NCBI RefSeq assembly: GCF_900607235.1
Contig: NZ_LR027851.1
Coordinates: forward strand, 310,001 to 374,000
Source of the DNA: Olivibacter jilunii
GTDB taxonomy: Bacteria > Bacteroidota > Bacteroidia > Sphingobacteriales > Sphingobacteriaceae
Length of the DNA stretch: 64,000 nucleotides
Direction: 5' to 3'
Shown here: positions 4,527 through 22,640 of the stretch, piece by piece
Layout of the letters: each line of letters begins with the position of its first letter
Position numbering within the stretch: the first letter of the stretch is position 1
Position numbers and translations under genes: made by a program
Notes under the pieces: model-generated
Told to the model about the DNA's origin: nothing
Databases searched by the model: none
Seen by the model: the letters and a program-made list of their open reading frames with translations, nothing else

Positions 4527-4799
4527 CTAATTCAAAGGGGTAAACTGCCCTGGTTCGATATTGGTAACCGGGGCAGTTGGGTTAGCACGGTGTCCAACGC
4601 AAGATTGATTGATTTCCGTATCACAAAGATAGTCTGTACCCTCTTCCATACTTGCCAGGTCCTTCCATTGTGCGTCTGAAGAATCGAAATAAACGTTGGG
4701 CTCGTCTTGATTAACATTGGCAGCGTAAGCAACACCACCGGCAACCAAAGAACCTACTAACGCTAACGCATTCAGTTTTCTAAATACTTTTTTCATCAT
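4527..4799 (-). CDS. Small exported protein with two cysteines, DUF6520-like
   Basis: About 90 residues. The start is taken at the tandem ATG codons (4799/4796), because a signal peptide then begins directly (MKKVFRKLNALALVGSLVAG, cleavage after AYA). A longer frame upstream adds 34 residues that do not look like an export signal. The mature part is short and polar, with two cysteines (YLCDTEINQSC) eight residues apart. The pattern and length match the small Bacteroidota proteins filed as DUF6520, which typically lie beside a MauE/DoxX-type membrane protein, as here. Function unknown. The neighbour suggests a periplasmic thiol/disulfide context, which is inference. The family name rests on recall of the layout, not on a search. 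Confidence 0.6.
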   Translation of the reverse strand: MMKKVFRKLNALALVGSLVAGGVAYAANVNQDEPNVYFDSSDAQWKDLASMEEGTDYLCDTEINQSCVGHRANPTAPVTNIEPGQFTPLN

Positions 4800-4939
4800 A
4801 TTTAAATTTAACCGGTTAACACGTGCTGAATTCCTCAGGTACGAGCACATTACCTGCCCCTTCGATTTTCCAAGGCTCCTATCTTCGAGGTATGTCTCCA
4901 TTTTGAATGTGCAGGGGAAGCCATCCCTGCTTTATCTCT

Positions 4940-6325: not shown

Positions 6326-6400
6326 TCCAAATAGCGCTGCCAACCTAGCAGCTAACGTACTATTTCTTAATCAAAAGTTAATCAAAAATTAAAGTTGCTG

Positions 6401-6417
6401 CATGGTACAGTACCATG
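6401..6417. promoter_or_regulatory. 17-bp perfect palindrome ahead of fecR-like gene
   Basis: CATGGTAC-A-GTACCATG is an 8-bp perfect inverted repeat around one base, 22 bp before the ATG of the FecR-like gene and 75 bp after the sigma stop. It could be an operator, or in RNA a stem too tight to form fully. Near-repeats of AATCAAAA lie just upstream. No protein partner can be named from the sequence. Confidence 0.5.
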
Positions 6418-6439
6418 TTCAGCTTTGTCATACAAGCAA

Positions 6440-7396: not shown

Positions 7397-7534
7397 AAAA
7401 TGTAAAAATTTAAAAAGGAGAAGGATGGTCAAATAAAACAATAAAGAGAAAAAACAAGGTGTATCCTAGTTCGCGGCCAAGACACACCGAGCTAAAAAAT
7501 AATCTGTAAAACTATTTTATTTAAAATCTAAAGT

Positions 7535-10500: not shown

Positions 10501-11086
10501 TAATCGTGGCGACTGGACCTTGGCCAATCATGGTGATTATCGGATCATTGGAAATACGACGCCGCGATATTTATATGGCATTAATTTGAACTTCGCCTAC
10601 CAAGGGTTTGATCTGAGTGCTTTTTTTAACGGGGTGGGTAAAAGGGATATTTATCCAACGGCCGAAACGGCTAATTTCTGGAGCTCGTATAACCGGAAAT
10701 ACCAAGTATTATTGGAACATGTAGTGGAAAACCGGTGGACGCCTGAAAATCCAAATGCTTATTTCCCTAAACCGCAGGGTTATGTTGCCTTAGGTAACAA
10801 TGATTTGGGTGTTCCGCAGACCCGGTATTTACAGGATGCATCTTATCTGCGGTTGAAGAATCTGATCATCGGATATTCCTTTCCAACGCATCTTTTTAAG
10901 AACAGCATTAAATATTTACGGCTTTATCTGGCTGGAACGAACTTGTTTGAATTGACCAATTTGCACGAGACGCTTGACCCGGAAGGCTTGCAGAAAGATC
11001 CGGATGCAAATGAAGCCAGTGTGGGGTTGGGTACGGCGTATCCCATTCAGCGAACCTATTCTTTTGGTCTTGAACTTAAATTTTAA
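7535..11086 (+). CDS. SusC/RagA-family TonB-linked receptor with STN signalling domain
   Basis: A 1183-residue outer-membrane receptor. Order: a long basic amino end and hydrophobic export segment (about 28-48, ending VQAQ); an STN domain (about 52-125, including LIEVFREIEKRTDFQFSYNE), which signals to FecR; a carboxypeptidase-regulatory-like domain (about 145-222); the motif DEVVVVGYGTQKK; the plug (about 235-345) with KDASSAAIYGARAAYGVILV; and the barrel, ending ELKF. The STN domain and the sigma/FecR genes upstream show that this receptor both imports its ligand and triggers its own expression. It is followed at 12 bp by its SusD partner. No carbohydrate enzyme is linked, so the ligand may not be a glycan. 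Assignment secure. Confidence 0.95.
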   Translation: MEYLFHYHKKILNYLALTSILYKRSTRYGVIGITFLLSILIYIPVQAQTIKTTELTIAGQDLPLIEVFREIEKRTDFQFSYNETDIKGLKVNLVNERMSVEKILTLALQNTPLVFKVIDNKIAVYEDKEKRSGSPESVNKQEEMMVEGIVNDTLNRPLSGVSITLQSNPKKVVSTDENGLFRISVPSTGTLIAKSIGYKTTEVPIAGNQRITISLLEDMAGLDEVVVVGYGTQKKINLTGAVDKVEAEQLERYKLTSMGEALQSQVPNLNVNISDGKPGRGASFNIRGTTSINGGSPLILLDNVPISSFEFNNISPQDIDNISFLKDASSAAIYGARAAYGVILVQSKQGIAGKTEISYNNNFKWGKATRVPKVYTGLDYTKIQEEEFNGNIGQTYFTEPQVEYPFLVNADPTLPLYDLQNIGGKATLLLGGPVINYYEEWFREYSPEQNHHLSVRGGTNKFKYYVSGDYNYEEGNLKFKPEKINRYNLRSNTTYQFSDKVSVFTKSSATLRRDDIPNTYLYGFSSNPWRFIDNTNPLLPEYIDINGEKIPTDIGFYKEFIQNQSEYKTNTSSFLNQIGTDISLLNKSLTLHADASYMYYHWYRNRWWDNTGPYLSHSFNNRNIVLSHYADAGPSKIYKSNTEAETFNVNAYANYKKAIGLHEIDLTGGMTFERYSEHYETVERQNPILGIDEHSLNLATGIFNASDTDDGYANRSIFLRGNYQFNNRYLLEVNGMHNYTSKFRKDMRGAYFGSFSMGWRVSEEGFFESLKPFVNEFKLRGSFGSLGNQNIGSFDYLSILSLSQSTYMLNGERYAYTSSPAPISQNFTWETSKTIDLGADIQLLNSKLAVVFDYYQRNTDNMLAPIYSLPSVFGAAVPKENIASLRNRGWELTLSWKDKIGSAKPFFYDIRFNLSDYKAVITDYYNPTNYLGDYYVGQEIGEIWGLNTLGLFQSDEEAKNSPLLQTSSYRQFVGAGNIKFEDSNNDGVINRGDWTLANHGDYRIIGNTTPRYLYGINLNFAYQGFDLSAFFNGVGKRDIYPTAETANFWSSYNRKYQVLLEHVVENRWTPENPNAYFPKPQGYVALGNNDLGVPQTRYLQDASYLRLKNLIIGYSFPTHLFKNSIKYLRLYLAGTNLFELTNLHETLDPEGLQKDPDANEASVGLGTAYPIQRTYSFGLELKF

Positions 11087-11098
11087 AGCAAAATAACT

Positions 11099-12853
11099 AT
11101 GAAAGTGATATATAAGATAGCCTGCTTGACGTTTTCGGCATGGAGCCTTTTGGGTTGCGAAAGCGCATTTGATATAACACCTGAAACGCAGATAGCCGAA
11201 TCTCCTGCTATTTTTGAAAATGAAGCCGGACTGCAGACTTTTTCTAATGGTTTTTACAACTCCTTGGATTTTAATAGTATCAAAGACGATAAGTTTAGCG
11301 ATAATATGGAGCATATTGCTAGCCCACCTACGATACGGACCGCTTTATACACGCTTCCTACGGCTTTAGGTAGCGGTGGCTGGAGTTGGACAGAGCTTCG
11401 AAACCTCAACTATTTTATAACGAACGTTGAACAGTATACTAAAGATGAGGAGTTAAAGAATAGGTATCTTGGCTTAGCGAAATTTTTTAGAGCTTGGTTT
11501 TATTTTAAAAAGGTAAAAACCTTTGGAGATGTGCCACTGTACACCAAGGTTTTAGGTACAAATGATGAGGATCTGTATAAAGGTCGTGATGAGAGGACGG
11601 TGGTGATGGATCACGTATTGAGTGATTTAAATTTCGCGATCGAGCATCTGCCGGCAGAAAAAAATAAGAACAGGATCTCGAAATGGACCGCCCTGGCGCT
11701 AAAATCTAGAATTTCGCTTTTTGAAGGATCATGGCGTAAATACCATTCAGCAGAAAACTTACCGGATGCAGACAAATGGTTGGAGGAGTGTGCTGCTGCT
11801 GCAAAAGAACTCATGGACGCAAATGTATATAACATCTATACAACTGCCACACCGGAGACGGATTATGCGGCAATGTTTCAAGCCGCCGAAGCCAACCCTG
11901 ATGAAGTAATACTTGCTAGGTCTGCCAGCCAGATCTATTTTTACTATACGCCGGAGTTTACCTCTACTTCTAATGGAAATTACGGTGCCACACATTCTTT
12001 AATAAGTGATTATACAACCATCGAGGGCGATTCGTACTATACTTCGCGTGGAGGTGATATTATGAAGGTTGAATATTTTGATGAATTTCAAAATCGCGAT
12101 TTGAGATTAAAGCAATCAGTGGTGTACCCTGGTTATGTACGGATTGGTACGTCCTCTAAATCGGTAAATGACTTCGCGCAGAATAGAACGGGGTATCAAG
12201 TAACGAAACGTGTGGGCCCTCCTTTGGAAGATCAGGGAAACGATAGCAGAGACGCGATTTTGATTCGTTATGCGGAAGTGCTGCTGAATTACGCAGAGGC
12301 GCGGGCAATATTAGGACGATTAACGCAAAGTGATTTGGACCTAACAGTGAATAGGCTGCGGGAGAGGGCCGGCGTGATGAAGAAAATGACCTTGCCGCTT
12401 TTGACTGATGCGCTACAGCTTAATAGATATAAAAGAACAACTGACCCAAATGTGTTGGAGATATGTCGTGAAAGAAGAGTGGAGTTGGCTTTTGAAGGTT
12501 TTAGGCGCGATGATCTCATTAGATGGAACGAAGGCCATCTGTTCCGCTCTGAATACCAGGGTATTTATATTAAAGGGTTTAACCAGCTGATCGATTTGGA
12601 TCGGGATGGTAAGTACGATTTATATGTGGTGAATAGCACGGATCCATTGCCTACGGATCGGGTAAGTGGTGTGCAATATTTTAAATTGTCCAGTGTAAAT
12701 GGCCTTTCGGAGGGCAATTCGGGAAGGTTGACGCCCTATAACATTACTAAAAAGAACTTCGAAGATTGGGAGTATCTTAGTCCTATTCCGCAAGAAGAAA
12801 TAACGTTGAACACGAACCTGACACAAAATCCCGGATGGGACAAAATACAATAG
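11099..12853 (+). CDS. SusD/RagB-family lipoprotein, partner of the STN-type SusC
   Basis: A 584-residue lipoprotein with signal MKVIYKIACLTFSAWSLLGC, lipobox LLGC. SusD features include YLGLAKFFRAWFYFKKVKTFGDVPLY near residue 120 and the C-terminal CRERRVELAFEGFRRDDLIR. The spacing to SusC is 12 bp, and the next gene starts one base after its stop, so receptor, lipoprotein and the DUF6528-like protein form one transcript. A segment DLDRDGKYDLYVV resembles an acidic calcium-binding loop (inference). Confidence 0.94.
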   Translation: MKVIYKIACLTFSAWSLLGCESAFDITPETQIAESPAIFENEAGLQTFSNGFYNSLDFNSIKDDKFSDNMEHIASPPTIRTALYTLPTALGSGGWSWTELRNLNYFITNVEQYTKDEELKNRYLGLAKFFRAWFYFKKVKTFGDVPLYTKVLGTNDEDLYKGRDERTVVMDHVLSDLNFAIEHLPAEKNKNRISKWTALALKSRISLFEGSWRKYHSAENLPDADKWLEECAAAAKELMDANVYNIYTTATPETDYAAMFQAAEANPDEVILARSASQIYFYYTPEFTSTSNGNYGATHSLISDYTTIEGDSYYTSRGGDIMKVEYFDEFQNRDLRLKQSVVYPGYVRIGTSSKSVNDFAQNRTGYQVTKRVGPPLEDQGNDSRDAILIRYAEVLLNYAEARAILGRLTQSDLDLTVNRLRERAGVMKKMTLPLLTDALQLNRYKRTTDPNVLEICRERRVELAFEGFRRDDLIRWNEGHLFRSEYQGIYIKGFNQLIDLDRDGKYDLYVVNSTDPLPTDRVSGVQYFKLSSVNGLSEGNSGRLTPYNITKKNFEDWEYLSPIPQEEITLNTNLTQNPGWDKIQ

Positions 12854-12854
12854 C

Positions 12855-13757
12855 ATGCATAAATTAATTGTTTTGTTTCTACTGATTACGGTATTTCAAA
12901 GCGCGTTTGCGCAAGGTGATAACGTTAAACCTGAATCAGGCGATTTGGTAGCCTGCGGGGAAGATCAGGTATTTATCTTAGCGAAAAAGGATGCTTATAA
13001 AGGCCAAGTGAACTATCGATGGAAATGGAAAGTGAGTGAAGCCGGAAAGCAACTCCCTCGGGATTATCAGCAACTACTTAGTACATTGGACGACTGTAAA
13101 CCGGTGGACAATGGTACTAAGTTGCTCTTAACAGCTTCCAGCGGGGCAACCATATTGCTCGATATTGCTACTAAGAAAGTGCTTTTTTATGCTAAAACAC
13201 CAATGGCTCACTCCGCCGACTTGTTGCCGGGAGGACGTATTGCCGTGGCTAATTCTACGCATCAAAAAGGCAACAGCCTGGAGGTATATGATATCAGATA
13301 TCCGGAAAAGGTGCTTTACAGAGATAGTCTATATTCAGGACATGGGGTTGTTTGGAATTTAGCAAGCAAGCAAGTGCTGGCACTCGGCTTTGATGAATTA
13401 AGGATTTATGAGTTGGTAAATTGGACTGGTAACAAACCTAAATTGACTTTATTGAAAACGTACAAATTGCCCGATGAAGGCGGACATGAATTGAGTAGCA
13501 TAAATAATACGCAATTTTTGATTTCAACGCATCATGGCGTGTGGACATTTGATCTTCGGAAGGAGTCTTTTGAGCCTTTTACTCCACTGGCAAAGCGCGT
13601 CAATATCAAATCTGCCAATTATCATAATGAGTCTAAGGCGTTGATATACACGATTGCAGAAGAAAGCTGGTGGACTTTTAATATTTACGGTGAGAACCCA
13701 ACATTCAAGCTTCATATTCCGTCAGTTAAATTGTATAAGGTTCGAGTTGTTCGCTAG
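12855..13757 (+). CDS. Periplasmic beta-propeller-like protein, DUF6528-like
   Basis: A 300-residue exported protein with signal peptide MHKLIVLFLLITVFQSAFAQ. The body has repeating strands of propeller type. It includes CGEDQVFILAKK, a run with MAHSADLLPGGRIAVA, and SGHGVVWNLASKQVLALG, which together match the Bacteroidota family filed as DUF6528. Members often follow SusC/SusD pairs. The start lies one base after the SusD stop, so it belongs to the same uptake unit and may bind or process the same ligand in the periplasm. No catalytic motif is apparent. The family name is from recognition, not search. Confidence 0.65.
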   Translation: MHKLIVLFLLITVFQSAFAQGDNVKPESGDLVACGEDQVFILAKKDAYKGQVNYRWKWKVSEAGKQLPRDYQQLLSTLDDCKPVDNGTKLLLTASSGATILLDIATKKVLFYAKTPMAHSADLLPGGRIAVANSTHQKGNSLEVYDIRYPEKVLYRDSLYSGHGVVWNLASKQVLALGFDELRIYELVNWTGNKPKLTLLKTYKLPDEGGHELSSINNTQFLISTHHGVWTFDLRKESFEPFTPLAKRVNIKSANYHNESKALIYTIAEESWWTFNIYGENPTFKLHIPSVKLYKVRVVR

Positions 13758-13836: not shown

Positions 13837-14871
13837 TTATTTTTTGTGATACCTCAAGTATAAAATACTAGGTAGGATACCAAATTCTTTCTTAAAAGCT
13901 CGAGTAAATGCTGCGCCGTCGTAGAATAGCAAATCTAAAGCAACTGCAGTAGGAGTGATGCCTTCCTCCACAATCTGTCTGTATCCCTCTGCCAATTTTG
14001 TTCGGGTAATATAACGCTGCAAACTCTCATGATAATGACGTCGGTGCACTTGGTTTAAGTAATTTGTGGTTAATTGGTGATTATGTGCCAGTTCTTCTAC
14101 GGTAAATGCAACACTTTCTTTTATATTCTCCTGCACTTGTTGTCTTATTTGTTGCAGCTTTAATATGAGCTTGTTCTGTGATTGGTATTCTTCACTGTAT
14201 TCTTGCCGGGCAAGTGTTATCAGTTGTAACAAGATGGGAGGGATATACCTTTCCAGTGAGAGCTCATTTTGCCTTGGCAAATGAAACAACCTGTAAAGAT
14301 AAAGTTTTGCTTTGGCGCTGAGCGGAATGCTAATGGTGCTTCCAAATTTTTCCGGTTTATAGGTTAGCTTAAAGAGAAGATCTTTTAGAAAGGATAAGGA
14401 GTTATCCTGAAAATGCAAAAGCAAGGATCTATCGATAATAAAATAAAAGGTGAGATACCGTTTTTCTTTTTTATAATAGGCTTGGTGATGCCCTGCTGGA
14501 AGATGGCTAATCTGATAATTTTGTTCCTTCATACGTAAGATAGTTGCTTTTTTCTGATCAATCCACAACCTTGTATTACCTTTTAATTGATAAAAAAAAT
14601 ACAAGTCATCATGGGTATAAATAAAATTCACGGTTAACTCCATGGAAGGAACAATCTCAGAAAGGTATATATAAGTGTCTTTGGTCTGGCAATATTGTTC
14701 AATGACGGTAAACTTTGGATGTTGCCAGTGCCTGCAATGTCCATAACGTAAGCGATAGGTAGTGTTTTTTGGTAAGTTATAGGATAGTTGGACGGGATCG
14801 GAGATGTATGGAAATTCAATCCTTACGCGGGGTTTAAGGGGCTGGTGTGTTTTTGATAAAGATGCTTTCAT
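13837..14871 (-). CDS. AraC-family transcriptional regulator
   Basis: A 344-residue protein with a divergent N-terminal half (about 1-240) and a C-terminal pair of helix-turn-helix motifs (about 255-342). The second contains AFTRAFKKEFGILPSILYLR, matching the AraC signature. The N-terminal part holds a central GHHQAYY stretch and no recognisable effector domain. It is convergent with the uptake operon and shares its terminator. Upstream lies the 330-bp gap before the 35-codon peptide gene, so it reads divergently from that locus and could regulate it, which is inference. DNA-binding assignment secure, effector unknown. Confidence 0.85.
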   Translation of the reverse strand: MKASLSKTHQPLKPRVRIEFPYISDPVQLSYNLPKNTTYRLRYGHCRHWQHPKFTVIEQYCQTKDTYIYLSEIVPSMELTVNFIYTHDDLYFFYQLKGNTRLWIDQKKATILRMKEQNYQISHLPAGHHQAYYKKEKRYLTFYFIIDRSLLLHFQDNSLSFLKDLLFKLTYKPEKFGSTISIPLSAKAKLYLYRLFHLPRQNELSLERYIPPILLQLITLARQEYSEEYQSQNKLILKLQQIRQQVQENIKESVAFTVEELAHNHQLTTNYLNQVHRRHYHESLQRYITRTKLAEGYRQIVEEGITPTAVALDLLFYDGAAFTRAFKKEFGILPSILYLRYHKK

Positions 14872-15201
14872 ATATGCGATTTATTGGTAATAAGACGAAT
14901 AAACGCAGGAAAAGATGATGAATCAAGTGACGGGGGTGACAATCCGTTTATGCCTTAAGAAGTCAACTGGCCGAGGGTAACCTAGAGGGCTTTATTTAGG
15001 TGACATAAGGTGTATTCTCTAATGGAAATCTTTGTAAAAATGCAATTTCGGTACCCGTAAAAGTAATTACGGCCGATTTATTTAGATTTTTACGGAAAAA
15101 ATTAGATGTTTGAACCGTGATCACCAAAATCTCATAGCTATTGAGTAGGTTAATACCGATGCCTTCGATAAAATCGGTACTTAAATTAAACAATAGATAA
15201 A
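14872..15201. promoter_or_regulatory. Structured leader/promoter region of the peptide locus
   Basis: This 330-bp gap holds several short inverted repeats: CCGTAA/TTACGG (15055-15060 / 15067-15072), the palindrome GTGATCAC (15117-15124), and TACCGAT/ATCGGTA (15154-15160 / 15173-15179). The last ends 22 bp before the peptide ATG. A CGGTAC word recurs. The promoters of the AraC gene (minus) and the peptide locus (plus) must lie here. I cannot fix a -7/-33 pair with confidence. Confidence 0.45.
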
Positions 15202-15309
15202 ATGTTAAAACCGTTGATTTTACCTGAACAAGCCCTAGGATTCTCCGATCTGTGTTTTCGCTATGGAATCATGAATTTGATTGACGATTGTGAGTATTGG
15301 GATCTTTAA
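15202..15309 (+). CDS. Small peptide, 35 residues, candidate signal or modified peptide
   Basis: A short frame, ATG at 15202 to TAA at 15309, with an in-frame stop 15 bp upstream, so it cannot be longer. The peptide begins MLKPLILPEQALGF, contains two cysteines (residues 18 and 30), and ends in the acidic-aromatic tail DDCEYWDL. No signal peptide or known family is apparent. Support for a real gene is positional: an A-rich Bacteroidota-type start region, a strong intrinsic terminator only 10 bp after the stop, and then, 21 bp after the terminator, an operon of acyltransferase-like enzyme, LytS kinase and LytTR regulator. A peptide made in excess ahead of a leaky terminator is a common plan for pheromone or bacteriocin loci. 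No homology is claimed. Confidence 0.5.
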   Translation: MLKPLILPEQALGFSDLCFRYGIMNLIDDCEYWDL

Positions 15310-15319
15310 TTTTTTCAAG

Positions 15320-15350
15320 CACTGCCCGACCCTAAGGGCAGTGTTTTTAT
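15320..15350 (+). terminator. Intrinsic terminator between peptide gene and acyltransferase operon
   Basis: An 8-bp perfect stem (CACTGCCC / GGGCAGTG) with an 8-nt loop is followed by TTTTTAT. Only 21 bp separate its end from the next ATG, leaving little room for another promoter. Downstream genes are therefore probably read by partial read-through. Confidence 0.85.
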
Positions 15351-15371
15351 AAACCATTTATGTAAATAATC

Positions 15372-16406
15372 ATGTTGAACAATTATGAAAATAAATTAAT
15401 CAGCCTGAAGCAGCGGCTAGCGAAGTCATCATGGAAATGCCATCCGCAGATGCTGAATACTTATGCTTTCTTCAGTGCTAATCTAACGCATTTTATGCCT
15501 GGCGTTCCGGCTACTTTGCATCAGAAATGGTTTAGTGAAGCCATTTTAAATAGGCAATGGAACAGACTTGATGAATCATTTTTTAACGATGAACACCCTT
15601 TTATAATTCAAGGATGGGATGAGGTATACCTAGAACGGTTAAGGAAACGACCCGGATTGATCTGCACGTTTCATACCGGGTCTTACCGGCTAATTAATTA
15701 TTTACTATACAGATCACAAATTCCTTTAGCGTTGCTGATAGGCGATTATGCATATCGCGAGCAAAGGCAATTCTTTGATAAGATCAAAGAAGGAATGCGT
15801 TCTACTTCAAGAAAAACTGCCTTTTCAACATTAAATGCAACAGATCCAAAGGTGGCGTTTAAAATGAAGCGTGCGCTTGAACAGGGATCGAATGTTTTAA
15901 CGTATTTGGATGGGTACCAAGGAGCGCAGGCTATAACGGGTGTCAATACCGTGCGCACACCATTTTTGGCACAGCATCAATTGCTTCGGAAAGGTTTGCC
16001 TTACCTCGCCTACAAACTGGATGTGCCGATTTATACGCTTTGCTGTTTCCGTGAAGCAGACAAGAGTCTCCGCTATATATGGCTCGGCCCTTTTGAAAAA
16101 AAAGAGATGACATTGCCGGATTTTATTGAGTACACCTTGTATAAAATCTACAGTGGTTTTGCTTCTTACTTACAACATTATCCGGCACAATGGCAAAACT
16201 GGTCGAGCTTACACCTCTATGCCAATAGAAATGATTTCTTTGTGCCCGCAAAAAAACAACCGGAAAGTAGAAGAGAACCTCAGGAGATGCTGCATGCTTT
16301 GCTAGCCCTTGGTAATGATTTCTTTCTATTGGATAAGCTAACCTATAAGGCCTATCAAATCCCTCAATCTCAGTTTAACGTTTTGCATCAACAATGGTAC
16401 AATTAA
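15372..16406 (+). CDS. LpxL/HtrB-like acyltransferase-fold protein (divergent)
   Basis: A 344-residue protein resembling the lysophospholipid/lipid A acyltransferase fold. LICTFHTGSYRLINYLL occupies the place of the family's first block, VLTYLDGYQGAQ that of the DxxGG-like block, and RTPFLAQHQLLRKGLPYLA that of the FFG...g.a.LA block. In LpxL enzymes the first block carries the catalytic HX4D/E; here the His is followed four residues later by Tyr-Arg (HTGSYR), so the acidic partner is missing at the normal place. No clear membrane anchor is visible. The last 13 bp overlap the kinase gene, showing translational coupling. It may acylate the adjacent peptide, or bind a lipid or peptide without catalysis (inference). 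Fold call moderate. Confidence 0.55.
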   Translation: MLNNYENKLISLKQRLAKSSWKCHPQMLNTYAFFSANLTHFMPGVPATLHQKWFSEAILNRQWNRLDESFFNDEHPFIIQGWDEVYLERLRKRPGLICTFHTGSYRLINYLLYRSQIPLALLIGDYAYREQRQFFDKIKEGMRSTSRKTAFSTLNATDPKVAFKMKRALEQGSNVLTYLDGYQGAQAITGVNTVRTPFLAQHQLLRKGLPYLAYKLDVPIYTLCCFREADKSLRYIWLGPFEKKEMTLPDFIEYTLYKIYSGFASYLQHYPAQWQNWSSLHLYANRNDFFVPAKKQPESRREPQEMLHALLALGNDFFLLDKLTYKAYQIPQSQFNVLHQQWYN

Positions 16407-17479
16407 CACGATTTAAACGATCGCCCGGTCAACAAAAGCTACTGGGCATCCAAGCAGCTTGTTGGTTACTTTATTTCGGTATCGTGTACATCGGCACCCG
16501 ATTAAATTTTCCGCAACAACGTGTCGGTACGCTTATTGGAATTTTTGTTCTAAAAGTGATTGTATTTTACCTTTTGCTAGGGATCCTATTTCTGGTATTC
16601 AATAAGAAGCATTGGTATAAAGGATTACTGCTATTGCTAATATTTTATTTTTTGGCAGCACCAGGTGCATATTTATATCTCTACAAGTTGATGGTTCATT
16701 TGGGCTTTAAGGTAAATCAAAAGGTGCCTCCACTAGATTGGAGTTTTCTAGGGCGCATGGCAAAGCACTATATTTTATTGGTCATTTTTGCTGTGGGGCT
16801 TTTTGTTTTTTTGAAATACCGCGCATACAAAAATAAGCAAATAGAAATGGCCATTATTGAATATAAGACAAAGATGTATGCAGCGTTGATGGCGAAAGAA
16901 CTAGAAAAGCTAAAATACGACGTATTAGCGAAGCAAGCTGATCCGCACTTTGTGCATAATATTTTTAATTTATTCTTCGGAGAATTACTTAAATATTCGC
17001 CTCGCTGGGCCCAACTAATGGCCTCATTCTCCGGTCTAACGCGCTATACGTTTACACATGCGTCTCAAGGTACCCGCAAAATTGTCGTATCGAAAGAGTG
17101 GCAGCAAGTAGAAGCCGCTCTTGCTTTGCAACAAGCCCGTTTTCCGGAAATTCCAATCCTGAAACCCGAAGTGCAAGGAGAGTTTGCCGGCCAGCGCGTA
17201 TTGCCCATGGCCTTCATTACACCCTTGGAAAATGCGTTTAAGTATGGGGATTTTACAGGCGACGGAGATGCGCTTTACATAAAATTACTTTTGACAGATG
17301 ACCTGGTTGAATTTACCTGTAGGAATCGCTTTGATCGGCGGTCAAGACCGATCACGTCAAGTGGAACAGGTTTGTCAAACTTAAGGAGAAGGTTGGAGAT
17401 CGTATTTAAAAATGAATTTCAATTAACGGTGGCGGAAGAAGAAGCATATTTTACTGTAAAAATTAGCATTAACCAATAA
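16394..17479 (+). CDS. LytS-type sensor histidine kinase
   Basis: A 361-residue membrane kinase. Four hydrophobic segments cover about residues 17-145. A coiled linker follows, then the His_kinase core with LAKQADPHFVHNIFN (about 175-190), where the family consensus is NPHF, and then a HATPase domain with TPLENAFKYGDF as N-box and GTGLSNLRRRLEIVF as G-box. It overlaps the acyltransferase-like gene by 13 bp and is followed after 2 bp by its LytTR regulator, so the three are co-transcribed. LytS/AgrC-like kinases with multi-span sensor parts often detect peptides or membrane-borne ligands. The Asn-to-Asp change at the phospho-acceptor block is unusual. Confidence 0.85.
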   Translation: MVQLTRFKRSPGQQKLLGIQAACWLLYFGIVYIGTRLNFPQQRVGTLIGIFVLKVIVFYLLLGILFLVFNKKHWYKGLLLLLIFYFLAAPGAYLYLYKLMVHLGFKVNQKVPPLDWSFLGRMAKHYILLVIFAVGLFVFLKYRAYKNKQIEMAIIEYKTKMYAALMAKELEKLKYDVLAKQADPHFVHNIFNLFFGELLKYSPRWAQLMASFSGLTRYTFTHASQGTRKIVVSKEWQQVEAALALQQARFPEIPILKPEVQGEFAGQRVLPMAFITPLENAFKYGDFTGDGDALYIKLLLTDDLVEFTCRNRFDRRSRPITSSGTGLSNLRRRLEIVFKNEFQLTVAEEEAYFTVKISINQ

Positions 17480-17481
17480 AT

Positions 17482-18216
17482 ATGATAAACGAATACTCAA
17501 TTAAGCAAGTCTTTAACTGCATGGTAGTAGATGATGAGCAGGCTTCTGTTACCATTGTTAAGAATTACATTAGCGCAATACCAAACTTAAATTTGGTTTG
17601 TTCAACAACGAACCCCGAGGAAGTACCTGCTTTATTGGAAAGGCATAGAATTGATTTACTCTTTTTAGATATTCACATGAAAGGGAAAGATGGTTGGGCG
17701 GTTAGGCGGATAGTGGAACCGGATATTCATGTAGTATTCTGTTCAGCGGACAATCGCTTGGGTAGCGAGGTCTTTGATGTGGATGGAGTGGATTATCTGG
17801 TAAAGCCATTTACGTTCGATCGTTTCAGTAAGGCGGTAGAACGGGTAATTAATCGGAGTAATGGGCTGCAATATAGTGGTGAGGCGGACGATTTAGATGC
17901 AGTCATATCTGTGAAAACAGGTAAAAGTAAAAAGGATATTATTGAATTAGTTGATATCGATTATATCACCACAAATTATAAACGGGTGCAGATTCACACT
18001 ATAAACGGGGTGATTACAGTAGACCATACGTTGAGTGAGTTGATGCAACGTCTTTCATCGCCGCGTTTTATTCAAGTAAGCAAATCGACCATCGTAGCCC
18101 GTAACCGTATCGCTACTGTACAGGCGAAATGCGTGATACTGAAAGGTAAAAATAAAACCGTTTTATCTGTAGGGGCGAAGTTTAAAGCGAACGTGCAAGC
18201 TTTATATCCGTCATAA
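17482..18216 (+). CDS. LytTR-family response regulator
   Basis: A 244-residue regulator. The receiver domain (about 12-128) has acidic pocket VVDDEQ, phospho-acceptor Asp in DLLFLDIHM and the conserved Lys in DYLVKPF. The LytTR DNA-binding domain (about 145-240) includes DIDYITTNYKRVQIHT and FIQVSKSTIVARNRI. It starts two bases after the kinase stop. LytTR regulators bind direct repeats spaced about two helix turns apart; I did not find a clear pair in front of the peptide gene. It is probably the output of the peptide/acyltransferase/kinase locus. Confidence 0.92.
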   Translation: MINEYSIKQVFNCMVVDDEQASVTIVKNYISAIPNLNLVCSTTNPEEVPALLERHRIDLLFLDIHMKGKDGWAVRRIVEPDIHVVFCSADNRLGSEVFDVDGVDYLVKPFTFDRFSKAVERVINRSNGLQYSGEADDLDAVISVKTGKSKKDIIELVDIDYITTNYKRVQIHTINGVITVDHTLSELMQRLSSPRFIQVSKSTIVARNRIATVQAKCVILKGKNKTVLSVGAKFKANVQALYPS

Positions 18217-18810
18217 ATGAGAAGTGGCATGAATGATTGGCGGGAAAGGTTAAAGCGTATAGAAAAACTTTTGGCTTATTTCAAGGAGGAGAAATTATTG
18301 GAATATTGGCAAAAGGACGACTTGCTGCGATTACAAGATGCTTTTATGTTACTGCTTACGGAAATACAGCAGTATTTTGGCGATATGCAACAGGAGTTAC
18401 TTTCGCGTGGTGAGCTGATTGACCTCTGGGATGAAGAGAAGTTGCACATTCCACTTACCAAGAAGTTGTTTGGAATGGATCATTACCGCTTTTATAAGGA
18501 AGTGTGGGATGAACTAAATGCGGTATTATCGGTGCAGAAAGAGACAGAGGATTTATATTTTCGAGTGTCTATCTCAGCGATGCAATTACTTTTCTTGATT
18601 CATCTGATGCACGAGGCACGTATTGTTGAAACACCTAAGAAAGGCAACTTATTCCGGTTTATTAGTAAGCATATTGGCACGCTGCAGCATGAAGAGTTAT
18701 CGTACGAAAGCCTGCGGAAAAAGTACCATACTGCTGATCGCAATACCATTATAAAGGTAAGGCGCTTACTGATGGACCTAGTTAATCTGATTAATAACCA
18801 CCACCTCTAA
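18217..18810 (+). CDS. RteC-like protein
   Basis: A 197-residue protein starting directly after the LytTR stop. A second ATG at 18229 would give MNDWRERLKRIEKLL and is equally possible. The C-terminal third (FISKHIGTLQHEELSYESLR, then a basic helix) resembles RteC, the regulator that controls excision of Bacteroides conjugative transposons downstream of the RteA/RteB two-component system. The order kinase, regulator, RteC is echoed here, but the regulator is of LytTR type and no transfer or integrase gene is present. The family call rests on the C-terminal pattern only. Its last 20 bp overlap the convergent small gene. Confidence 0.5.
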   Translation: MRSGMNDWRERLKRIEKLLAYFKEEKLLEYWQKDDLLRLQDAFMLLLTEIQQYFGDMQQELLSRGELIDLWDEEKLHIPLTKKLFGMDHYRFYKEVWDELNAVLSVQKETEDLYFRVSISAMQLLFLIHLMHEARIVETPKKGNLFRFISKHIGTLQHEELSYESLRKKYHTADRNTIIKVRRLLMDLVNLINNHHL

Positions 18811-19042
18811 CATTCGTGTTTAAGAGATAGAGCATCTGCCTTTGGTCTAGGAAATCCATGAGTTCATTAAACCAGGGAATAGTGTAAACAGGATTGTGTG
18901 CTATGTCCTGATGGCCAAGATCTATGATGTTTTGTAGGGTATAGAGCTTTTGCCGCTTGCAGATGTCTTGAAAATTTTTGCTAAATCCCAAGGTGTATAT
19001 TTTTTGGGATAGGAGGTCTTGAGTATTGATAATTGCTGCCAT
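18791..19042 (-). CDS. Small protein resembling RNA polymerase alpha C-terminal domain
   Basis: 83 residues. The stretch LSQKIYTLGFSKNFQDICKR, then a helix starting LQNIIDL, and FNELMDFLDQRQMLYLL follow the helix-hairpin-helix pattern of alpha-CTD-like small proteins found in Sphingobacteria. Such a domain could bind DNA or polymerase-associated factors (inference). The 3' end overlaps the RteC-like gene by 20 bp in a convergent tail-to-tail arrangement. The ATG at 19042 is 28 bp from a large multi-stem inverted repeat, which therefore lies in its leader. Moderate confidence that it is a gene. Confidence 0.5.
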   Translation of the reverse strand: MAAIINTQDLLSQKIYTLGFSKNFQDICKRQKLYTLQNIIDLGHQDIAHNPVYTIPWFNELMDFLDQRQMLYLLNTNVRGGGY

Positions 19043-19069
19043 GTTAATAATGCAACGGGCCGTACATTC

Positions 19070-19181
19070 AGCACCTCTGGGGTCTCAAACCCATTGCACA
19101 TGAACAAACTGACACCCGCGCATTGGCGGGCGATCAGTCTATTTACCATGTGCATTCAATAATTTGAGACTTCGAGGTGCT
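19070..19181. other. 112-bp multi-stem imperfect inverted repeat
   Basis: Five nested complementary segments fold the whole element: AGCACCTC/GAGGTGCT (19070-19077 with 19174-19181), GTCTCAAA/TTTGAGAC (19082-19089 with 19163-19170), TGCACATG/CATGTGCA (19095-19102 with 19147-19154), ACTGA/TCAGT (19108-19112 with 19134-19138), and CCCGC/GCGGG (19115-19119 with 19126-19130). That is 34 pairs, all perfect within segments and separated by internal loops. It lies in the leader of the minus-strand alpha-CTD-like gene and about 150 bp ahead of the plus-strand HTH gene. It could be a structured RNA or a single-strand DNA fold. Confidence 0.7.
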
Positions 19182-19332
19182 TGGTGAAATAGCTGTCGCT
19201 AAATAATTTATATGTTAAATATTCCTTTTTATATCATCTGTTAATTTTTAAAATTCTTCTCTCAAAGATATTGATAAAATGCTGATGAGGCAAGAATCAA
19301 TTTTTAAACTATAAACCCTAAATCAAATCATC
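19182..19332. other. AT-rich promoter region of the HTH gene
   Basis: About 150 AT-rich bases between the multi-stem element and the ATG at 19333. They presumably hold the promoter of the HTH gene. I see no distinct box. Confidence 0.35.
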
Positions 19333-19641
19333 ATGAACGCAAGACCTAAAGGGCCTGCGCCATGCCCGCAGTGTGCTTATCTCCTTCGCTTATTGTATCG
19401 CGAAGTGAGAGGCCTTAAAGAATATACAATCGAAATTCAACGCTTCATTCTCCAAAAGGAAAAGGAAGAAACCGTTTACCGTGATGCGGCTTATACGATG
19501 GATCGGGTGGGGATTAGTGACAGCACTTTACTTCGCTGTCAGCATAAGGGCCTGATCAAAGTGGCTAAAGTGGAAAAGGGTAAGAAGTATTTTCGGGATG
19601 CCGATGTGGAACGGTTGAGGACGATGTATTGGGGTTTTTAG
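19333..19641 (+). CDS. Helix-turn-helix protein, excisionase/MerR-like
   Basis: 102 residues. The N-terminal CPQC pair could bind metal. The C-terminal half carries YTMDRVGISDSTLLRCQHKG followed by KKYFRDADVERLR, the pattern of the winged HTH_17/MerR-like DNA-binding domain of excisionases and small Bacteroidota regulators. It stands alone between the structured element at 19.1 kb and the DUF6266 cassette. Its plausible targets are those neighbours (inference). DNA-binding call good, role unknown. Confidence 0.75.
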   Translation: MNARPKGPAPCPQCAYLLRLLYREVRGLKEYTIEIQRFILQKEKEETVYRDAAYTMDRVGISDSTLLRCQHKGLIKVAKVEKGKKYFRDADVERLRTMYWGF

Positions 19642-20071
19642 TTGTGTGTTGCAAGCTAATTACCTGCCAATTTCTGACCAAATGCTGCCGCTTACTTGCT
19701 TTTTACTTACTCCTGATCGGCTTTTTGTCGGCAATTTCCCGATCAGGTCCCGATACCACCTCGATAAAATCCCGATGACGTTTAGAAAAAAAGGGAGAGT
19801 TGGTTGCCGGTTGCGAAGATATTACCTAGGGAAATAGCTAAGTAGTTGACCGGTGGACGCAGCACCTCTGCGAAGACAAAAAACCTAAAGACATGCTTCA
19901 TCGCTCCCTTCATGATCCCTTCAATTTTTCGATACATCCCCTTCACCCTCCCTTCAATGCGCTTCGGCGCCTATGAAAGCCCTTTTTTACGCTTTATGTT
20001 TGCCTCATGACGCATGAGATACCGGTATAAATGATTGCGGAATGTATGGTTAAACTTTAAAATAGAAAAAA
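19642..20071. other. 430-bp gap ahead of the DUF6266 cassette
   Basis: It contains a cluster of CCCGAT words around 19740-19775 and an inverted repeat CTCATG-ACG-CATGAG at 20004-20018, 54 bp before the DUF6266 ATG, which is a possible operator. A CAGCACCTCTG 11-mer at 19863-19873 also occurs at 19069-19079, in the arm of the multi-stem element. No credible gene was seen. Confidence 0.4.
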
Positions 20072-20716
20072 ATGGGAACTATCAGAAATGGAGCAAATGG
20101 TGGCTTCAAAGGTAAAGCGGGAAGTGTGATCGGCAGCAGCTGGAAGAGCATAGACTACATTAAGGGCCTCTACAAAAAACGCACGAAACCCGCAACGGAA
20201 GAGCAATTGATGCAACAGGCTAAATTCCGTACAGTGATGCGCTTCCTGCTCCCCATCACAGCGTTCATTCGTATCGGTTTCGGCCAGAAGCGAGTGGACA
20301 GCATGACCCCCATGAACACAGCTTTCAGGGAGAACCTGGTGCTGGCGCTTATGGGTGACTATCCCGATTATTCGCTGGATTATAGTAAAATCCGTATCAG
20401 CGACGGCTTCTTTGCAGGCGGTGGCTCTGAAAGTGTCACGGTGGACGCCGGTGTTATGACGGTGAGCTGGGATACTACGCAGAATACGTTATACGATACC
20501 AACAATGACGATCGGGTATACATCCTGTTATATCAACCGGAGATCGATCAGTTTTTATCGGCACCGACACCACCTTTACGGGGCGATGGAAGTGTGGATA
20601 TCACGCTGCCAAATCACTTCCTGGGAGGTGAGGGGCATGTGTGGACTTTCTTTGCCGATAGGCAGGGCAGGAAAGTGTCGAGAAGCACGTATCTCGGAAC
20701 GGTGAACCTTGCTTAG
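20072..20716 (+). CDS. DUF6266-family protein
   Basis: 214 residues, no signal peptide. The amino end MGTIRNGANGGFKGKAGSVI followed by GSSWKSIDYIKGL is the hallmark of the Bacteroidota family DUF6266. Next comes an alpha-helical part (about 45-100), then a beta-rich domain (about 110-214) with VTVDAGVMTVSWD and a C-terminal RQGRKVSRSTYLGTV. Function is unknown. The glycine/lysine-rich N-terminus and beta-sandwich tail are reminiscent of structural or surface proteins, but this is speculation. A second, shorter member follows after 50 bp. Neighbours (DUF5675, small membrane proteins) suggest a phage-derived or lysis-like cassette. Confidence 0.8.
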   Translation: MGTIRNGANGGFKGKAGSVIGSSWKSIDYIKGLYKKRTKPATEEQLMQQAKFRTVMRFLLPITAFIRIGFGQKRVDSMTPMNTAFRENLVLALMGDYPDYSLDYSKIRISDGFFAGGGSESVTVDAGVMTVSWDTTQNTLYDTNNDDRVYILLYQPEIDQFLSAPTPPLRGDGSVDITLPNHFLGGEGHVWTFFADRQGRKVSRSTYLGTVNLA

Positions 20717-20725
20717 TATGTGACA

Positions 20726-20749
20726 GAGGGTACGGGTAACCGTGCCCTC
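20726..20749 (+). other. Hairpin with GTAA loop between the two DUF6266 genes
   Basis: A 10-bp stem (GAGGGTACGG / CCGTGCCCTC, one G-U pair) is closed by GTAA, a GNRA-type tetraloop. No T tract follows, so it looks like an RNA-stability or processing hairpin more than a terminator. The second gene starts 17 bp later. Confidence 0.6.
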
Positions 20750-20766
20750 CGCTTAACGCAGAAAGA

Positions 20767-21318
20767 ATGGAATGGATATCAAAAATTGAATTACCGAAAG
20801 TTAAAAAAGAACCAAATGGACGATTGGCTGTACAGCAACGTTTTAAGATCGCAATGGAATTTTTGGCACCCTTGGGAAAACTCCTGCAAAGCACATACAG
20901 TACCAGGAAGCGTGGAAAATCGGCCATGGGAAGAGCAATGTCAAAGGTGCTTAGCGGAGCGATTGAAGGGGCGTATCCCAATCAATACGTGAATCCGGCT
21001 AAGGTGCTGCTCAGTGAGGGAACCTTAATGTCTGCTCGCGAAATAGAGCTGAAGAGAGATGGAAACACCCTGACAGCAACGTTTAACGCAAGATCGGATT
21101 ACATTTTTGGTAACCCGGACGATGGCGTGCTCTTATGTGCCTATAGTCCTTCTCTGCGTATTGCGGGAATCAATGAAGAACCATCCATTCGGGCGGATGG
21201 AAAGGTCAGTATTACACTGCCTCCGCAACTGAAAGATCAGGAGGTACTTGTGTATATCCTATTTCGTACGCGCGATTGGAAACATTTTTCACGAAGCGTT
21301 TATCTGGGGGAATGGTGA
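20767..21318 (+). CDS. Second DUF6266-like protein, lacking the glycine-rich amino end
   Basis: 183 residues. It resembles the previous protein in its helical part (RFKIAMEFLAPLGKLLQSTY against the first protein's RFLLPITAFIRIGFG) and in its C-terminal beta domain (KHFSRSVYLGEW against KVSRSTYLGTV). It lacks the initial GKAGSVIGSSWK block. An in-frame stop 30 bp upstream shows that the short form is genuine and not a wrong start. The two genes look like a diverged tandem duplication. Cytoplasmic by appearance. It is followed by the heptamer array in front of the DUF5675 gene. Confidence 0.7.
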   Translation: MEWISKIELPKVKKEPNGRLAVQQRFKIAMEFLAPLGKLLQSTYSTRKRGKSAMGRAMSKVLSGAIEGAYPNQYVNPAKVLLSEGTLMSAREIELKRDGNTLTATFNARSDYIFGNPDDGVLLCAYSPSLRIAGINEEPSIRADGKVSITLPPQLKDQEVLVYILFRTRDWKHFSRSVYLGEW

Positions 21319-21532
21319 AGTGGTTGAGTAGTTAAGTAGGAAAGTGGTTGAGTAGGTTTATTAGTGTTGAGTTATGAGTTATGAGTGATGCCTGCCTGCC
21401 GGTAGGCAGGAATTTTGAGTGAGTGCCTACCGCTTATAGCCTACGGCATAAAGCTGATAGCTGACATCCGAAAGCTGACCGCTGATGGCTGAGAGCTAAC
21501 GCCTAATTCCTAACACCTAAAAACTAAATAAT
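21319..21532 (+). repeat. Word array: 22-bp palindrome plus 15-unit heptamer array
   Basis: Octamer words (GTNGTTRA type) at 21318-21355 are followed by heptamers AGTNNTG (about 21363-21388) and the palindrome CCTGCCTGCCGGTAGGCAGG (core 21389-21410). Then 15 consecutive 7-bp units, consensus NGCTRAN, run without phase change from 21424 to 21528. Units include AGCTGAT, AGCTGAC, GGCTGAG, TCCTAAC and ACCTAAA. The array ends four bases before the DUF5675 ATG, so it forms the whole leader of that gene. Confidence 0.85.
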
Positions 21533-21976
21533 ATGATTAAACTAATAAGAATCGCCGAAGGCATAAACACGACCCTCGGCCAGTTATACATTGACAATCT
21601 CTTCCAGTGCTATATACTGGAAGATAAAATACGGGATGAAAAAATCCCGGGAGAAACGGCCATCCCGGCCGGGACCTATCAACTCGGCTTGAACAAGCTG
21701 GCGGGTATGAATGCCAAATATCAGAGCCGATACAGTTCCATGCATAAGGGAATGGTAGAAATCAGAGGTATTCCCAATTTCAATTTGGTGTTCTTCCATA
21801 TCGGAAATTACCATACGGACACCCGTGGTTGCCCCTTAACTGGAAGTTACTATCAGCTGATTGACGGCGATTATCGGGTACTGCATTCGGCAGATGCCTA
21901 TAAACGGGTGTATCCTTTATTAGCTGAATGTGCTGCCGCGGGGAGTAGTTTGATCATTAGCCAATGTGATCATTAG
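21533..21976 (+). CDS. DUF5675-family protein, possible L,D-transpeptidase-like fold
   Basis: 147 residues, no signal peptide. YIDNLFQCYILEDKIRDEKI, then IPAGTYQLGLNK and FHIGNYHTDTRGCPLTG mark the family DUF5675, common in phages and genomic islands. The arrangement His-x-Gly-Asn followed by Thr-Arg-Gly-Cys recalls the HGN...S/T-x-G-C catalytic block of YkuD L,D-transpeptidases, suggesting action on peptidoglycan. This is my inference from the motif, not an established activity. Without an export signal it would need a holin-like partner, and two small membrane proteins follow directly. The leader is a heptamer array up to the start codon. Confidence 0.75.
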   Translation: MIKLIRIAEGINTTLGQLYIDNLFQCYILEDKIRDEKIPGETAIPAGTYQLGLNKLAGMNAKYQSRYSSMHKGMVEIRGIPNFNLVFFHIGNYHTDTRGCPLTGSYYQLIDGDYRVLHSADAYKRVYPLLAECAAAGSSLIISQCDH

Positions 21977-22148
21977 CCAATATGATAATGTTTTGGCTAC
22001 ATAAAGCTAATCGCTTACGGTCTTATAAGTAACTGTGGTAGTAGTGCGAGCTTATACCTTAAAGCTTACATCTTATTGATCGCTGATAGCTGACATCCGA
22101 AAGCCGATAGCTTATACTTAATTTCTAACCCCTAAAAGCTAAATAACA
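21977..22148 (+). repeat. Heptamer word array ahead of the first small membrane protein
   Basis: It opens with AGCCAATRTGAT words. A phase of 7-mers (AGCTTAC, ATCTTAT) precedes nine in-phase units from 22081 to 22143 (CGCTGAT, AGCTGAC, ATCCGAA, AGCCGAT, AGCTTAT, ACTTAAT, TTCTAAC, CCCTAAA, AGCTAAA), ending five bases before the ATG at 22149. The unit order closely copies the array before DUF5675. Confidence 0.85.
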
Positions 22149-22370
22149 ATGAAATCATTAGAATTAATAACCTTATTAGGAACCCTTATCTCCATATTAC
22201 TATCAATCATCGCTTATTTTCTAAAACAGTTACATGGTAACTTCCGGAAAATGGAGCAGGATGTGTCCATCATGAAAGCGAGTATACAATTGCTGAAAGC
22301 AGATTTAAAAGCGAATTATAATTTACTGCGACAGCGGATGGAGTTTTTGGAAAATGGCCATAAGCCGTAA
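22149..22370 (+). CDS. Small membrane-anchored coiled-coil protein, holin/XhlA-like
   Basis: 73 residues. One N-terminal membrane helix (about 5-27, LITLLGTLISILLSIIAYFL) is followed by a charged amphipathic helix (about 30-68) with regular hydrophobic spacing (MEQDVSIMKASIQLLKADLK). Size and layout resemble accessory lysis proteins of the XhlA type or coiled-coil spanin-like partners, though no sequence signature proves it. It lies between DUF5675 and another small membrane protein, each preceded by a short-word array. Probably real given its clean start and coding pattern. Confidence 0.55.
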   Translation: MKSLELITLLGTLISILLSIIAYFLKQLHGNFRKMEQDVSIMKASIQLLKADLKANYNLLRQRMEFLENGHKP

Positions 22371-22371
22371 A

Positions 22372-22413
22372 CCAATAACCAATAACCAATAACAAATAAC
22401 GAACAACAAATAA
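22372..22413 (-). repeat. Reverse-oriented TTNGTTA heptamer array (6 units)
   Basis: Six in-phase units CCAATAA, CCAATAA, CCAATAA, CAAATAA, CGAACAA, CAAATAA form the complement of the TTNGTTA heptamer found at 36.0 and 60.8 kb. The array fills the gap between two small genes and ends just before the ATG at 22419. Confidence 0.85.
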
Positions 22414-22418
22414 CGAAA

Positions 22419-22640
22419 ATGAACGAAATAACAGATAGAATCAAATCACCCACACCGAAGTTCTTTAAAAGAATAAGAACCATCGGTTTAACCTTGGGTG
22501 CGGTAGGCGGAGCGTTGCTAACAGCTCCGATTACTTTACCGACAACGGTAGTTACCATCGCCGGTTACCTCGCAACGGCTGGTATTGTAGCATCAGCCAT
22601 CTCAACTGTGGCCAAAGATGATACGCGAGTTGATAAATAA
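22419..22640 (+). CDS. Small membrane protein, holin-like
   Basis: 73 residues. A basic amino end (KSPTPKFFKRIR) leads into a long glycine/alanine-rich hydrophobic stretch (about 22-64) that can form two helices, separated near PITLPTT, then a short charged tail (KDDTRVDK). The shape is that of a small phage holin or a Bacteroidota hypothetical found beside DUF5675. A good terminator follows immediately, so this ends the cassette. Function inferred from size, topology and neighbours only. Confidence 0.55.
   Translation: MNEITDRIKSPTPKFFKRIRTIGLTLGAVGGALLTAPITLPTTVVTIAGYLATAGIVASAISTVAKDDTRVDK

Follow-up and report, generated by a model that had tools for sequence, protein, structure and literature searches.

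Among the described systems that come closest to the locus considered here, ComQXPA combines an isoprenyl transferase, ComX prenylated at a Trp residue and a NarL-type regulator, and regulators of the LytTR type recognize sites formed by two 9-bp direct repeats with a period of approximately 21–22 bp. We know of no described peptide quorum-sensing system in Bacteroidota, of no LPLAT-type enzyme with a role in peptide maturation, and of no peptide or acyltransferase partner of the so-called transmembrane transcription regulators. The present analysis concerns a gene cassette found in a stretch of 64,000 nucleotides of Olivibacter jilunii (contig NZ_LR027851.1, positions 310,001 to 374,000; the whole stretch is referred to as the window and its own numbering is used), in which a short, easily overlooked peptide gene precedes the genes of a divergent acyltransferase-like enzyme (ACYL), a LytS-type sensor kinase, a LytTR response regulator and a fifth protein. 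In a survey of two-component quorum sensing, the full Agr pathway is assigned to alphaproteobacteria, clostridia and bacilli, and Bacteroidetes are not named in that list (PMC8895600). According to another report, the DAG-RiPPs (RiPP, ribosomally synthesized and post-translationally modified peptide) of Bacteroidota are ribosomal peptides with a conserved Cys, associated with MNIO enzymes, a lipoprotein signal peptide and the Lgt/Lsp/Lnt pathway (PMC12636315). An earlier note, made from the letters of the window, had stated that no described Bacteroidota system with an acyltransferase-like protein in the modifying position was known to its author, and no description of such a cassette was found in the literature searched, which left out most subscription-journal papers and preprints, so that absence from print is not established.

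With moderate confidence we read the locus as an autoinducing peptide-signalling cassette, with an LPLAT-fold enzyme where other systems have AgrB or ComQ. Because these genes are found together again in many relatives, and a fitting binding site for the regulator is often present before the peptide gene, the cassette is probably an undescribed chemical-communication system. In the proposed mechanism, the short precursor, often made from its own terminated transcript, would consist of a leader, often an acidic linker, and then a Cys with, most often, five residues at the natural C-terminus. ACYL would modify it, in the simplest case by acylation of the conserved Cys, or of the Cys amino group once the leader has been removed; the mature peptide would then be detected by the LytS-type membrane kinase, which would phosphorylate the LytTR regulator, and the latter would bind direct repeats of 21-bp period in the peptide promoter, leading to more peptide synthesis. 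In this scheme we infer the modification and its chemistry, leader removal, export, sensing and the positive feedback.

Sequence comparisons show the cassette itself, the peptide genes and the selection acting on them, the terminator, the LytTR-type repeats and a weak covariation between peptide core and kinase membrane domain. The arrangement described in the earlier note, namely a 35-codon gene with its own terminator followed by an operon of ACYL, kinase, regulator and fifth gene, was confirmed in the window for all five frames, with the same coordinates and spacing (table 1). Its kinase and regulator labels were borne out by a Pfam scan, PF06580 (8.8e-9) being the only match above the cut-off in the former, and PF00072 and PF04397 being present in the latter; the peptide, ACYL (at E 1) and the fifth protein of the window gave no significant match of their own, and an AgrB-type match was absent among the five cassette proteins.

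The genome of the window contains five ACYL copies, each in a cassette with its own peptide gene (5/5), and four different peptide cores: CEYWDL in the window, and CIPYEGF, CIPYEGL (twice) and CPFEIF in the paralogues. Matches to the ACYL profile were obtained in 5/5 genomes of the genus, 83/399 of the family and 12/395 of the class; six of these last 12 are weak matches (E 1e-11 to 1e-18), of which L041 (loci are labelled L and genomes G) was inspected and has no cassette. Parapedobacter luteus, P. koreensis, Ferruginibacter paludis, Terrimonas ferruginea and Agriterribacter humi are among the carriers. No ACYL match was returned by a plasmid search, which may omit near records. After removal of 11 of 124 loci (duplicates, one near-identical locus and one fragment), 113 distinct ACYL loci were compared. 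They are not a random draw, since mostly the better homology matches were taken; near copies were also removed before the repeat scans (12 of 99 out, and few or no others for want of upstream DNA; at most 89 loci left) and before the peptide composition counts (10 of 99 out, 89 left). Because related loci remain in the sets, the events counted are not independent. Directly downstream of ACYL (within 400 nt), the kinase is found in 101/113 loci, and both kinase and regulator in 97/113, in agreement with the expectation that ACYL would occur mostly with the kinase pair. Among the 12 loci that lack a kinase in this position (L039, L041, L069, L128, L130, L173–L176, L182, L189, L192), L039 and L128 have one further downstream and L069 is at a contig end. 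The distances among ACYL, kinase and regulator sequences are intercorrelated (Mantel r 0.85–0.91, n = 97). Broken cassettes also occur: in genome G002, a transposase-like gene (label by eye) stands right before a shortened ACYL in L037, and L040 retains only the peptide and the start of ACYL.

A curated short frame of 21–63 codons with a Cys near its C-terminus was found upstream of ACYL in 98/113 loci. On re-inspection, a peptide-like frame was recognized in eight more (L025, L079, L124, L141, L158, L162, L168, L173); that of L124 is DICDIVLPGLDMF, that of L079 is a copy of the Ferruginibacter type, L141 has no ATG, and L158, L162 and L168 have a late one only. The peptide statistics rest on at most the 98 curated peptides, without these eight frames. 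A C-terminal motif was detected in 44/90 further loci, whereas the reverse strand gave 2/90 and shuffles gave 2.5, so that its occurrence exceeds chance. Since this motif, intended for the first 20 loci, was written once the others had been seen, the test is not a blind hold-out, and its true controls are the reverse strand and the shuffles. In a less strict form, the motif is weak (90/112 versus 32 on the reverse strand and 32.7 in shuffles). The ratio of non-synonymous to synonymous substitution rates (dN/dS) ranges from 0.04 to 0.42 across 23 related peptide pairs, with a value of 0.16 for the window and its relative L022, and the corresponding pooled ratio of proportions (pN/pS) is 0.25 in 18 pairs that share no locus, compared with 1.26 and 1.46 in the shifted frames. 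Judged from these ratios, related peptides are under purifying selection, and in the reading frame only. The peptide-signalling interpretation of the earlier note was thus supported on the three points by which it could have failed: short frames whose C-termini are related do recur upstream of homologous operons, the peptide is constrained, and ACYL mostly accompanies the kinase pair.

The peptides themselves are variable, with 73 distinct cores among 89. Exactly five residues follow the Cys in 43/89, Lys directly precedes it in 47/89, the residues after it are 69% hydrophobic, and acidic residues are approximately twice as dense in the ten residues before it (0.26) as in the rest of the leader (0.12). 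The window peptide contains two Cys residues and ends with DDCEYWDL. In 31 peptides scanned, no NCBIfam match was obtained at E 0.01, and Pfam gave a single marginal one (E 0.005).

Many of the peptide genes are preceded by LytTR-type repeats, which the earlier note had not foreseen. Direct repeats (8/9 identical) at exactly 21 bp were found upstream of the peptide gene in 28/89 loci versus 2.3 ± 1.7 in shuffles. The neighbouring spacings of 20 and 22 bp were found in 11 and 6 loci, respectively, and, of the other spacings between 10 and 40 bp, 11 bp (7) and 30 bp (8) are mildly raised, the remainder being near background. In control regions, the 21-bp repeats were found in 2/89 loci inside ACYL, in 6/82 past the regulator and in 5/89 far upstream. 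Because such repeats are enriched upstream of peptide genes, the LytTR regulator probably controls the peptide gene. The half-sites of the window are 7/9 identical, and so outside the 28, and those of the relative L022 are 8/9 identical. With 0 mismatches, the operator pattern of the window occurs once in its own genome and once in G003, in both cases before the peptide gene; in the two Olivibacter genomes there is no match at 1 mismatch, and matches with up to 3 mismatches are no commoner than those of a reversed-pattern control. A wider regulon sharing this operator was rejected, the peptide promoter alone standing out; the gap at 18811–19333 has low-complexity direct repeats only. An operator that stands out solely before the peptide gene also suits a different reading, in which the peptide is itself the output, that is, mainly a bioactive (e.g. 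antimicrobial) lipopeptide, its synthesis is autoinduced through the kinase pair, as in the case of nisin, and signalling serves production. The hydrophobic cores, the transcription unit with its own terminator and the lack of a visible regulon beyond the peptide would agree with it. However, neither an immunity nor an ATP-binding cassette (ABC) export gene was recognized among the annotated recurrent neighbours, a bacteriocin would be expected to have a core longer than about six residues, and the presence of several parallel cassettes in one genome is in keeping with private channels; we hold such a product to be unlikely.

The transcript of the peptide gene has features of its own. A terminator-like hairpin within 75 nt past the peptide stop was found in 39/98 loci, as opposed to 1.2 expected from mononucleotide shuffles; in the window, its stem is of 8–10 bp (8 pairs correspond to 15320–15343), followed by TTTTT, and a simpler terminator scan did not list it. 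The presumed leader of the window may form two hairpins (CTCA-TAGCTAT-TGAG, 15131–15145, and TACCGAT...ATCGGTA, 15154–15179), of which the second is present in the predicted folds and the first is outside the minimum-energy fold, the z value of the whole 236 nt being −2.73. A known RNA element as leader was rejected on the Rfam scan, with no match at the gathering score in nine loci and chance-level matches only in the window.

A distinct two-hairpin leader RNA was observed just upstream of the peptide gene or frame in L038, L156, L158, L160–L162, L166, L168, L179, L183 and L185–L187. In an alignment of nine sequences, 96% of the cells are paired and five pairs are changed on both sides, GAAGCCG is invariant, and a GCGAG loop is present in 8/9. 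The covariation score exceeds those of all 500 shuffles, and the number of further pair types is no better than in shuffles (373/500). The covariance model gave 13 strong matches in 87 sources, nine of them the training set and none in the window; in 12 chosen genomes it gave nine strong matches, all before a peptide–ACYL cassette. Rfam gave no match for the leader-bearing loci scanned (L161, L179), and RNAalifold found no or little consensus in other leader subgroups. This leader is a candidate cis-regulatory RNA.

These RNA features bear on two further explanations. The short frame could encode a peptide that acts inside the cell as a regulator or attenuator, or a small protein partner of ACYL, with ACYL making a small lipid signal for the kinase. 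The terminator between peptide and operon, the structured leader with its covarying hairpin in 13 loci and a fold that is that of lipid-modifying enzymes are what would be expected, but the peptide sequence is constrained and not composed of codon runs, the core varies, though weakly, with the kinase membrane domain, and the spacing between peptide gene and ACYL is highly variable between loci; this explanation appears rather improbable. It would take still more to regard the approximately 240-nt transcript as a dual-function RNA like RNAIII, whose main effector would be the RNA itself, the peptide being secondary: a LytTR-type operator, a structured leader, a short frame and a terminator are all present, but the leader model finds one subgroup only, to which the window does not belong, and the coding constraint on the peptide is clear, which leaves very little room for it.

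The AlphaFold model of ACYL is confident (mean predicted local distance difference test, pLDDT, 86.4), and the closest solved structures, far above the rest, are Acinetobacter baumannii LpxM and mycobacterial PatA (5knk, Z 20.3; 5kn7, Z 20.2; 5f2z, Z 19.8). PF03279 is matched at E 1 or better by 21/24 members of the ACYL alignment, so that the LpxL-like label of the earlier note stands, and the LPLAT fold, as modelled, and ancestry are clear. In the genome of the window, three genes elsewhere match PF03279 strongly, and two of the ACYL paralogues are also above the cut-off. The acidic residue of the HX4(D/E) motif is replaced by Arg106 in 24/24 members of one alignment and in 14/16 of the other (the exceptions at H+5 being Gln in L025 and Phe in L039), and most members have HxGS(Y/F)R in its place. 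His101 and Asp180 are invariant in both alignments, and the ordinary homologue of the same genome (L196) keeps HQFNWE at the motif. LpxM E127 has been termed catalytic (PDB title, 5knk). No evident transmembrane-like segment was found in ACYL. In L256, a distant ACYL relative adjoins an arginase-family gene, with no peptide or kinase recognized, and the wider enzyme family therefore probably has other roles. It is conceivable, and we put it forward tentatively, that the cassettes form a family of ribosomal lipopeptide pheromones, in which the fold of lipid A acyltransferases has been repurposed for acylation of a peptide with a C-terminal Cys, with many parallel private Bacteroidota channels read by LytS/LytTR pairs or membrane LytTR regulators. 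If ACYL does lipidate the peptide, it would represent a new route to lipidated RiPPs; if it does not, an LPLAT fold would be carrying out some other peptide chemistry, which would be stranger still. The family offers small precursors without a known protein family, an enzyme class not known to us in peptide maturation and predicted operators, all of which are directly testable.

The kinase family has about four transmembrane segments by hydropathy, the last one being weak. A variant without it was found in L253–L255 (genomes G322, G419 and G274, respectively), where no kinase is near and peptide and ACYL are kept, next to a LytTR protein predicted to contain about four transmembrane segments and a C-terminal LytTR domain. 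G322 has two identical peptide copies, and in G274 the peptide-like frame is outside the curated set. No operator was found between the divergent genes by the strict repeat search; in G419 (locus L174), a 21-bp repeat is present at a greater distance upstream of the peptide. That the peptide–ACYL pair adjoins a LytTR protein even without the two-component part points to signalling, and the kinase-less loci also point to the peptide, not the kinase, as the substrate on which ACYL acts.

Several observations must be set against an autoinducing peptide. No exporter or protease was recognized in the cassette, and neither a signal peptide (by a crude N-terminal pattern) nor a lipobox (pattern [LVI][ASTVI][GAS]C) was found in any of the 89 peptides. 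There is no peptide frame in 7/113 loci (L037, L041, L077, L121, L130, L136, L176), of which L037 is cut by an insertion and L136 is at a contig end, and the ‘invariance’ of the Cys is partly by choice because the Cys was a curation criterion. A strict 21-bp repeat is missing from 61/89 promoters, including that of the window, and such repeats are somewhat raised inside the kinase gene too (9/83). Because the operator is unique, no regulon is evident beyond the peptide promoter. With no acidic residue at the HX4(D/E) position of ACYL, ordinary acyl transfer cannot be taken for granted. The covariation between core and kinase calls for similar caution. Across the 57 loci in which the core is short and the proteins are intact, the core distance correlates with that of the kinase membrane domain (r 0.56) and with that of the kinase domain (r 0.53); partial Mantel tests, which are liberal on related sequences and here give small effects, yielded r 0.24 (p 0.001) for core and membrane domain given the kinase domain and 0.05 (p 0.08) for the reverse, along with 0.19 (p 0.001) for core and ACYL given the regulator and 0.13 (p 0.003) for core and regulator given ACYL. 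Core variation thus seems to track the kinase membrane domain weakly, and slightly more than the catalytic domain.

Table 1. Features of the cassette in the window and of its kinase-less variant in other loci.
Feature	Coordinates	Strand	Description
AraC-family regulator, divergent, possible partner	13837–14871	−	AraC-/Crp-like gene in such a place in 36/53 wider-context loci
Candidate LytTR-type operator	15038–15073	+	Direct repeat at 21 bp, half-sites AATTTCGGT (15044–15052) and AATTACGGC (15065–15073)
Presumed 5' leader of peptide transcript	15110–15201	+	Two possible hairpins; transcript start inferred
Precursor peptide gene	15202–15309	+	ATG frame, 35 codons, 35 aa, MLKPLILPEQALGFSDLCFRYGIMNLIDDCEYWDL; core probably starting at C30
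Intrinsic terminator between peptide gene and ACYL	15320–15348	+	Hairpin and T-run directly 3' of peptide gene
ACYL, divergent LpxL/LPLAT-fold enzyme (predicted)	15372–16406	+	344 aa; HTGSYR replacing HX4(D/E); 62 bp past peptide stop
LytS-type sensor kinase	16394–17479	+	361 aa; about four N-terminal transmembrane segments; 13-bp overlap with ACYL
LytTR response regulator	17482–18216	+	244 aa; 2-bp gap to kinase
Fifth protein	18217–18810	+	197 aa; 0 gap to regulator; no significant Pfam match
Kinase-less variant	L253 8243–10935, L254 8034–10508, L255 687–3235		Peptide(s)/ACYL back to back with LytTR protein

The RteC-like label initially given to the fifth gene was rejected: there is no match to Pfam RteC (PF09357) at E 1, the gene is not among the PF09357 matches of its own genome at E 10 (two other genes only), and profile comparison with genuine RteC by hhalign gave a 0.2% probability. 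The AlphaFold model of the protein is too poor for use (pLDDT 45, four sequences), and a relative of it is found downstream in 36/113 loci. Two of the paralogous cassettes of the same genome, on contigs C9 and C12, do have genuine RteC genes some kb downstream (L030 11674–12540, L193, L194).

The wider context was read in 53 loci, several of them short. SusC and SusD are encoded upstream on the same strand in 29, and the opposite strand upstream carries MauE in 21 and an AraC- or Crp-like gene in 36; downstream, a small MerR-like helix-turn-helix (HTH) gene is found in 23 and a DUF6266-cluster gene in 12. These neighbours were not counted as parts of the cassette because they are absent with the CIPYEGL type and, with few exceptions, from Chitinophagaceae-type loci; they are candidates for uptake or output partners. 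In the window (5–5419), and also, for example, in L022–L029 and L200–L216, a SusC–SusD pair, a small minus-strand protein and MauE (PF07291) lie upstream of the cassette. The small protein of the window (about 4530–4800) is secreted-looking and may be a DUF6520 protein, and a thioredoxin-like gene (label by eye) is often near the MauE set, whose members may be partners in uptake or redox reactions. The window also contains, between the genes of MauE and the AraC-family regulator, an ECF sigma factor, a further SusC/SusD-like pair and a DUF6528 gene (5735–13757), possibly an inserted operon, other cassettes with both genes having MauE and AraC close. The downstream region at 19333–22640 encodes the MerR-like HTH protein, two DUF6266 proteins, a DUF5675 protein and two proteins of 73 aa, one of which matches a holin weakly; the protein cluster including the DUF6266 genes is downstream of the cassette in 23 loci, the window and one other member having been Pfam-checked. 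Nine cassettes with the core CFFRT(F/I) (L135, L137, L139, L140, L142–L144, L147, L149) have a homoserine O-succinyltransferase gene upstream in eight cases and a sodium:solute symporter gene downstream in all nine, only L137 having been Pfam-checked. A role in anti-phage defence was rejected, PADLOC giving nothing for ACYL, kinase, regulator, fifth protein or the first DUF6266 gene, and one weak match for the HTH gene at 19333 (E 0.0008).

By comparison with known systems, the conservation of a precursor gene with a putative modifying enzyme, kept as a pair even in L253–L255, is a trait shared with RiPPs. The DAG-RiPPs, whose chemistry is the closest that was found in the literature searched, resemble the present peptides in being ribosomal products of Bacteroidota with a conserved Cys, lipidation being only proposed for the cassette, and differ in that no lipobox was found in the 89 cassette peptides and no MNIO was recognized (PMC12636315). 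The membrane-anchored LytTR protein of the kinase-less loci resembles the transmembrane transcription regulators (PMC10269533). ACYL is like LpxL, LpxM and PatA (PF03279) in its predicted fold (Z 19–20), whereas most of its members have HxGS(Y/F)R instead of HX4(D/E). With ComQXPA, the cassette has in common an enzyme of lipid-substrate type beside a precursor whose C-terminus becomes the signal, followed by a membrane kinase and a regulator, but LPLAT, Cys and LytTR are found in place of isoprenyl transferase, Trp and a NarL-type regulator. Agr is approached by the short precursor with a Cys-containing hydrophobic core, the membrane kinase, the LytTR regulator and the LytTR-type repeats before the peptide promoter, and cassette cores such as CDFVIL resemble CDFIM of the autoinducing peptide AIP-I. 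Unlike Agr, however, the cassette is without AgrB and has an LPLAT-fold enzyme with no evident transmembrane segment, its kinase is of the PF06580 type rather than the HATPase_c_5 type of AgrC and ComD, and its core ends at the natural C-terminus, most often five residues past the Cys.

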